NCBI RefSeq assembly: GCF_011398155.1
Contig: NZ_AP021888.1
Coordinates: 913,501 to 977,500, forward strand
DNA from: Thiosulfativibrio zosterae
GTDB taxonomy: Bacteria; Pseudomonadota; Gammaproteobacteria; Thiomicrospirales; Thiomicrospiraceae
Direction: 5' to 3'
Length of the DNA: 64,000 nt
Shown piece by piece: positions 52,075-53,496 of this stretch. Each line of letters opens with the position of its first letter. The first letter of the stretch is position 1. Position numbers and translations under genes: made by a program. The notes under the pieces are model-generated. The model worked only from the letters and a program-made list of their open reading frames with translations. It did not search any database and had not been told where the DNA came from.

Positions 52075-52101
52075 TCAAAAAAAAGGATATTTGGCCGATA
52101 T
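52075..52101 (+). promoter_or_regulatory. Sigma-28-like promoter cut off from pseB by an IS
   Basis: TCAAAAAA-N11-GCCGATAT, close to the flagellar sigma-28 consensus (perfect GCCGAT core, correct spacing), pointing toward pseB. IS3 copy 2 starts 47 nt downstream. Confidence 0.6.
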
Positions 52102-52213
52102 TAAATTTTATAAGATTGATTTTTATGCAAACAAAAAAACTGACATAGTGTTGTGGCTACACTATTTCGTACCTAGATGATGTTATAAAATCATCATCCA
52201 AAGGAGACCCGAA

Positions 52214-52501
52214 ATGGCCAATGCAAAATATGACCCTGAACTCAAAAAAGAAGTGATTGACGCTATCGTTAATGGCGGAAGAAGTTCAGCCCAAGCTGCC
52301 AGAGATTATGAGTTACCAGTAACCGTTGTTTACACATGGGTTCGTGCGCATAAACTTAAAAATGATTTGGCAGTGATTCCAAATCAATCTGAATCTCTAG
52401 AGCAAGAAAATAAACGGCTCAAAAAAGAACTTGCTCAAGCCAAGATGGAGCGAGATATCTTAAAAAAAGCCACCGCATACTTCGCCAGCCTCGACAAGTG
52501 A
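52214..52501 (+). CDS. IS3-family transposase OrfA, copy 2
   Basis: Identical in sequence to OrfA at 22284: 95 residues, HTH plus leucine-zipper, with the same A7 frameshift run at 52462-52468. Confidence 0.92.
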   Translation: MANAKYDPELKKEVIDAIVNGGRSSAQAARDYELPVTVVYTWVRAHKLKNDLAVIPNQSESLEQENKRLKKELAQAKMERDILKKATAYFASLDK

Positions 52502-53406
52502 AGTATGTCTGGATACAAAAGCATCGAGAAGAATTCCTGCTTGCGCTGATGTGCAAGGTATTAAAAGTGCCTATCAGCAGCTTTCATAGCTGGCTAAAAC
52601 TGGATTTGACAGATAAGGTCGGCGAACAAAAAGATAATGCTGACTTGATTAAAGATGCCTTTACCACCTTAAAAGGAAATGCAGGAGCAAGAGGCATAAA
52701 AGGTTATTTAGCCAACGAAAAGAAAGTGACGATGAGTCGGCGAAAAATCGCACGAATCATGAGAGAACAAGGCCTAATCGTGCAAACTCGTAAGAAGTTT
52801 AAGAAAGCCAATAGTGCGGCGATTAATGACCCCAAAATAAAGCCAAACCTACTCAAACGTGAGTTTAAAGTCTGCTATATCAACCAAGTATGGGTTGGTG
52901 ACATAACACAAGTAAAAACCCAGCAAGGCTGGATGTACTTGGCGACCTACATCGACCTCTACTCAAGAAAAGTAGTCGGCTGGGCATTAGAATCACACAT
53001 GCGTTCTGAGCTGATTGAAACCGCATTAAAAAGAGCCTTGTAGAATCGTAAGCCCCCTAAAGGACTGATGGTTCACACTGACCAAGGTAGTCAATTTATC
53101 AGTAATGATTATCGCAAACTGATTGCCCATTGGAGCATTAAGCAAAGCATGAGTCGTCGTGGAAATTGTTGGGATAATGCCGTCATTGAGAGCTTCTTTA
53201 AGTCTTTCAAAACAGAAACAATTTACCAGCTTAAAAAAATAATAAGCCAACAAGAAATGCGCTGGCTGGTTTCAGAATATATGGGTCACTACAACCATAT
53301 CAGACCAAACAGTTCGAACGGTTATATTCCACCGGCAAAATTCGAGAAATTGAGATTAGACCGACTAAAAGAAATTGAAGAAAATCTAGGTACGAAAAAG
53401 TGTTGA
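52498..53406 (+). pseudogene. IS3-family transposase OrfB with in-frame TAG, copy 2
   Basis: The amber codon is at 53041-53043, the same position as in copy 1. The two differ near the end (H to N and S to P in the IRPxSSNGYIxPAKF stretch). The DDE core is otherwise complete. Confidence 0.88.
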
Positions 53407-53496
53407 CACTCCATAGAATTAAGCCGCATAATGAAATCTGTAATTGCGCGATATAGCCTTGCAGTAAAACGGTTAGTAAAGCATTGAAGGAAAAAA

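Follow-up and report, generated by a model that had tools for sequence, protein, structure and literature searches.

An IS3-family insertion and a predicted hybrid promoter between a sigma-28-type site and a pseudaminic acid operon

The pseudaminic acid (pse) genes in the 64-kb window (the whole stretch of DNA analysed here) begin with pseB, and pseC, F, G, H, and I lie downstream of it; all six score above curated cut-offs, as expected of the known pseudaminic acid operons, which serve flagellin glycosylation in Campylobacter, Helicobacter, and Aeromonas. The present operon differs from the known ones in lying beside flgK-flgL-slt and in having a sigma-28-type site of its own. Between pseC and the remaining pse genes lies a gene (55709-57262) that encodes AAA-ATPase_like and PDDEXK_9 domains. 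On the other side, pseB faces a divergent exonuclease gene, and the junction of the two contains the features collected in Table 1. The initial annotation had described a motif, TCAAAAAA-N11-GCCGATAT, directed toward pseB and separated from it by the second copy of an insertion sequence (IS) with a TAG duplication, and had estimated that removal of the IS would leave the motif about 130 nt from the pseB start. We found each of these elements as described, the distance from the end of the -10 box to the pseB ATG being 127 nt (47 + 80) when the flanks are joined without the IS.

Table 1 Features of the exonuclease-pseB junction and sigma-28-type sites at the same junction in relatives
Feature	Position	Strand	Remarks
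Exonuclease gene, RNase_T (PF00929)	51419..52045	-	Divergent from pseB; reference point for the comparison of junctions
Sigma-28-type promoter candidate, TCAAAAAA-N11-GCCGATAT	52075..52101	+	Matrix score 13.0; like-spaced site at the junction in five relatives
Left TAG of target duplication	52146..52148
IS3-family element, copy 2, 1,265 bp	52149..53413	+	Ends TGTTGTGG...CACTCCA
orfA of the IS, HTH_Tnp_1	52214..52501	+
orfB of the IS, HTH_21 and rve	52498..53406	+	TAG at 53041-53043; Trp at this position in related copies
Outward -35 hexamer TTGACA in IS right end	53403..53408	+	Identical in the two own and six related copies
Right TAG of target duplication	53414..53416
-10 hexamer CATAAT in native flank	53427..53432	+	Pairs with 53403-53408 as TTGACA-N18-CATAAT
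pseB, first gene of the pseudaminic acid operon	53497..54495	+	TIGR03589, 556 bits, cut-off 408
pseC	54499..55656	+	TIGR03588, over cut-off
Junction site in G068			TTAAGAAA/GCCGTTAA, matrix score 18.8
Junction site in G025			TAAAGAAA/GTCGTTAG, matrix score 14.3
Junction site in G069			TAATAAAA/GCCGATAT, matrix score 7.5
Junction site in G010 and G019			TTATGAAA/GCCGATTA, matrix score 7.4

The inserted element displays the hallmarks of the IS3 family. It carries overlapping orfA (HTH) and orfB (DDE integrase core) genes, with matches to HTH_Tnp_1, HTH_21, rve, rve_2, and rve_3, and orfA is matched by the IS3 transposase model NF033516 with a score under the cut-off for the whole protein, which is to be expected of a partial protein. 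Its TG...CA ends form inverted repeats (TGTTGTGGCTACACTATTTCGTACCTAG versus TGGAGTGTCAACACTTTTTCGTACCTAG, 23 of 28 positions identical), and copy 2 is flanked by an exact TAG/TAG target duplication, within the 3-5 bp typical of the family. The 2.65-Mb genome, a single contig, contains two copies, which share their orientation and both lie within the window, the other being located at 22219-23483.

Promoters recognized by FliA (sigma-28) serve late flagellar genes such as fliC, fliD, and flgM, and fliA is present in this genome. The pseB candidate resembles such promoters in its GCCGATAT-type -10 box, N11 spacer, T.A in the -35 box, and location within 60-150 nt upstream of a gene; unlike the FliA promoters of flagellins, it has a weaker -35, and the gene downstream serves nucleotide sugar synthesis and does not encode a component of the flagellum. 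The string TCAAAAAAAAGGATATTTGGCCGATAT (+ strand, 52075-52101), placed between the minus-strand exonuclease gene and pseB, occurs only once in the 64-kb window, and the zero expectation for this pattern is no test, the pattern having been derived from the site itself. A genome-wide scan with the exact consensus TAAAGTTT-N11-GCCGATAA, with up to three mismatches, was barely enriched (85 matches versus 76 in a reversed control), and it was therefore replaced by a family-specific weight matrix. The matrix was built from 40 flagellin and fliD promoters, namely those of the flagellin genes in 30 family loci, this genome included, and of the fliD gene of this genome; no pse sequence entered the training set. 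The matrix also picked up flgM, a classical FliA target that had not been used for training.

The pseB site scores 13.0 with this matrix, lower than all but a few of the training sites, and its -35 lacks a G present in 38 of the 40; the best sigma-28-type sites of this genome have TAAAGTTT or TAAAGCTT as the -35. Across 2 x 150 kb of this genome, 14 positions score at least 13.0, a density that is, if anything, overestimated, given that the background, about 150 kb, includes stretches picked for similar motifs; the pseB site ranks last among the 14, and at least six of the rest are found at flagellin, fliD, and flgM genes. When the empty-site spacer was shuffled, 13 of 3,000 sequences (0.4%) attained the score of the pseB site. 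Thus, its boxes and spacing, within the N10-N11 range, match a sigma-28 promoter beyond chance, although, taken alone, TCAAAAAA-N11-GCCGATAT would be a middling candidate, of medium quality and with a weak -35. The flagellin genes themselves, four in number, are arranged as a tandem-duplicated pair (L112 7421-11797; G000 C1 1004421-1008797), and the first gene of each pair is preceded by a different sigma-28-like promoter, TCAAGAAA/TCCGATAA in one case and TAAAGCTT/GCCGATAA in the other.

Comparison with relatives adds to this picture. Among 63 family genomes searched, including this one, the exonuclease gene is found in six, in all six divergent beside pse genes, and all six junctions contain a site of the form T.A..AAA-N11-G[CT]CG[AT]T with an 11-bp spacer. 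This short pattern was composed after viewing the sites; the matrix was not. By matrix score, two of the five relatives have strong sites (G068 and G025) and three have weak ones (G069, G010, and G019), the 7.4-7.5 of the latter each being attained by 3-4% of shuffles. The combined p value is 4e-8 over five genomes and 8e-7 for the relatives alone, G019 having been left out as a near relative of G010. The IS is absent from this junction in all five relatives. The comparison with IS-free relatives proposed in the initial annotation thus finds the motif type retained in five of five, and its suggestion that pse was formerly under sigma-28 control gains support from the presence of the site in every genome with the junction. 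G010, aligned by itself with the empty site, proved too diverged for the alignment to be decisive. In G019 (L202 2329-2573), the exonuclease junction and the promoter-like block are as in G010, and all that is left of pseB is about 21 bp that match its start; pseC follows.

In eight other family genomes, pseB lies directly 3′ of slt, with flgL upstream wherever the stretch extends far enough, and the last 180 bp before pseB contain no sigma-28-type site (scores -5.3 to 6.5). Furthermore, none of 80 pseB upstream regions, mainly from distant bacteria, scores 13 or more, and the signal therefore appears specific to this family and junction. The simplest reading of these sequences is that the family would link pse to the flagellar cascade by one of two routes: co-transcription with flgL and slt, which lie upstream, or, in genomes with the intervening exonuclease gene, a sigma-28 promoter belonging to pse itself. 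One further relative, G070 (L149), has an in-frame TAA or a frame break near residue 44 of pseB, and its pse pathway may therefore be decaying.

A different reading of the motif is that it is no sigma-28 promoter, that pse has always been read by sigma-70 or by another route, and that the GCCGAT-type boxes have been kept for some other reason or by chance. The weak -35 in this genome, G010, G019, and G069 would fit this reading, as would the low enrichment of the exact-consensus scan and an extended -10-like element, TGGTATGAT, which G010 and G019 share closer to the gene. However, the combined p value comes from a matrix free of pse sequences, two of the junction sites are strong, and the empty site contains no sigma-70 match better than 8/12. 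We consider this reading unlikely and favor a sigma-28 promoter at the ancestral junction.

The insertion left the sigma-28 box intact, which rules out that the promoter was removed or broken; the expected start, at about 52107, lies some 41 bp upstream of the IS. Transcripts from this start would enter the left end of the element. A simple scan detected no plus-strand terminator inside the IS, which has the same orientation as pseB. The RNA of the left end (52149-52230) has a predicted fold (z = -3.4) in which the ribosome-binding site and start of orfA are partly paired, so that entering transcripts may yield little transposase; the predicted fold could possibly act as a guard against impinging transcription.

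The right end of the IS, GTGTTGACACTCCA, contains an outward-directed TTGACA. Together with the CATAAT of the native flank, this hexamer forms TTGACA-N18-CATAAT (53403-53432), which matches 11 of 12 positions of a sigma-70 consensus that may not be the preference of this host; its 18-bp spacer is not optimal, and it lies 64 nt upstream of pseB. Only one TTGACA-N16-18-NATAAT match is found in the 64 kb, with 0.26 expected, and no matching -10 is found in the flank of IS copy 1. The TTGACA is constant in all eight right ends compared, two from this genome and six related ones in two other genomes, whose IS elements are 87-90% identical. If a circle junction had a 3-bp spacer, 17 bp would separate the hexamer from a left-end TACACT, which would correspond to the left-end -10 in the circle junctions of IS911 and other IS3-family elements. 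In IS911 and other members of the family, the right-end -35 participates both in this junction geometry and in fusion promoters beside target genes; the latter are also known from IS2 and from ISKpn8 in Tn4401 (PMC9330008, sections 4.2 and 7.2). The arrangement upstream of pseB resembles these fusion promoters in having an outward -35 in the right inverted repeat, a -10 supplied by the target at correct spacing (within 16-18 bp), and the orientation of the downstream gene. It differs from them in that its target is a flagellar glycan operon apparently once driven by sigma-28, in that both IS copies have an amber codon in orfB, and in that the hybrid is a predicted one. By chance, 5.8% of the insertion points in the spacer would create a hybrid at least as good, and therefore we claim no selection for this one.

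Collectively, these observations suggest the following scenario, to which we assign a probability of roughly 0.5 (0.52). Before the insertion, the pse operon would have been read from its own FliA promoter at the exonuclease-pseB junction, so that the glycan precursor would have been made together with the flagellin that it decorates. The IS3-family element then inserted, in the same orientation, some 41 bp beyond the expected start. The sigma-28 promoter would have been kept intact, displaced by 1.3 kb and now with a 1.4-kb leader through the IS, while the right-end TTGACA, placed 18 bp from the native CATAAT, would have created a hybrid sigma-70-type promoter. The pse genes would now be transcribed mainly from this constitutive hybrid, with a smaller, flagella-timed share arriving by read-through; the hybrid may thus have replaced flagella-timed control. 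The sigma usage, promoter strengths, and read-through in this scenario, as well as any phenotype, are predictions.

The initial annotation held that the insertion had rewired or weakened the locus. Rewiring appears likely, by way of the predicted hybrid promoter, which that annotation had missed. Weakening finds no positive support: the box is intact, the IS is co-oriented and free of plus-strand terminators in a simple scan, and a second promoter has apparently been added. Because an outward TTGACA is paired with CATAAT and nothing comparable is found in the empty site, addition or substitution of a constitutive promoter seems at least as likely as weakening. The latter would be the outcome if the sigma-28 promoter were real and the hybrid hexamers incidental, with pse expressed only by read-through from the sigma-28 promoter or from a transposase promoter, on a longer leader. 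The matrix and the relatives speak for a sigma-28 promoter under this reading as well, a hybrid of this quality arises by chance at 5.8% of insertion points, and IS RNA left untranslated beyond the orfB amber codon could favor early termination. Nevertheless, the 11/12 match and an IS end that is built to supply a -35 (PMC9330008) argue against coincidence, and this possibility appears unlikely. It is highly improbable that neither promoter matters and that an undetected one, located within the IS or in the 83 bp separating it from pseB, drives pse, the insertion having had no effect: the tools used detect only consensus promoters, but no other sigma-70-type match of at least 9/12 is found from the IS to the ATG.

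Fusion promoters of the IS3 type are a known mechanism, predicted here for a target that is biologically sensible because, in Shewanella oneidensis, flagellin modification and motility are lost without pseB (PMC3120886). The locus can be regarded as a natural experiment in how a mobile element may rewire regulation, with states before and after the insertion that are comparable because the relatives offer IS-free junctions. It also provides sequence evidence that places pseudaminic acid synthesis in the late flagellar regulon of the family; in the papers searched, we found neither a statement to this effect nor a report of FliA control of pseB. We tentatively suggest a broader possibility, namely that a single transposition took the flagellar-glycan operon out of late, sigma-28-dependent timing and placed it under constitutive housekeeping transcription, so that sugar synthesis became uncoupled from that of flagellin, and that across the family the two kinds of link between pse and the flagellar cascade are interchangeable.

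The two IS copies display several further peculiarities. Copy 1 is flanked by TAG and AAG, with no exact target duplication, and the copies differ at four bases, all inside 49 bp near the right end; the clustering of the differences and the missing duplication may reflect recombination or conversion in place of simple transposition. The in-frame TAG of orfB is common to both copies (at 23111-23113 in copy 1) and lies between the first and second catalytic Asp, at a position occupied by Trp in seven related copies. Since the genome contains no intact copy, the element looks immobile unless the TAG codon is suppressed, yet the defect is common to two copies. Finally, the two copies are direct repeats (22219-53413) that bracket about 30 kb with chemotaxis and flg genes, and recombination between them would delete this block.
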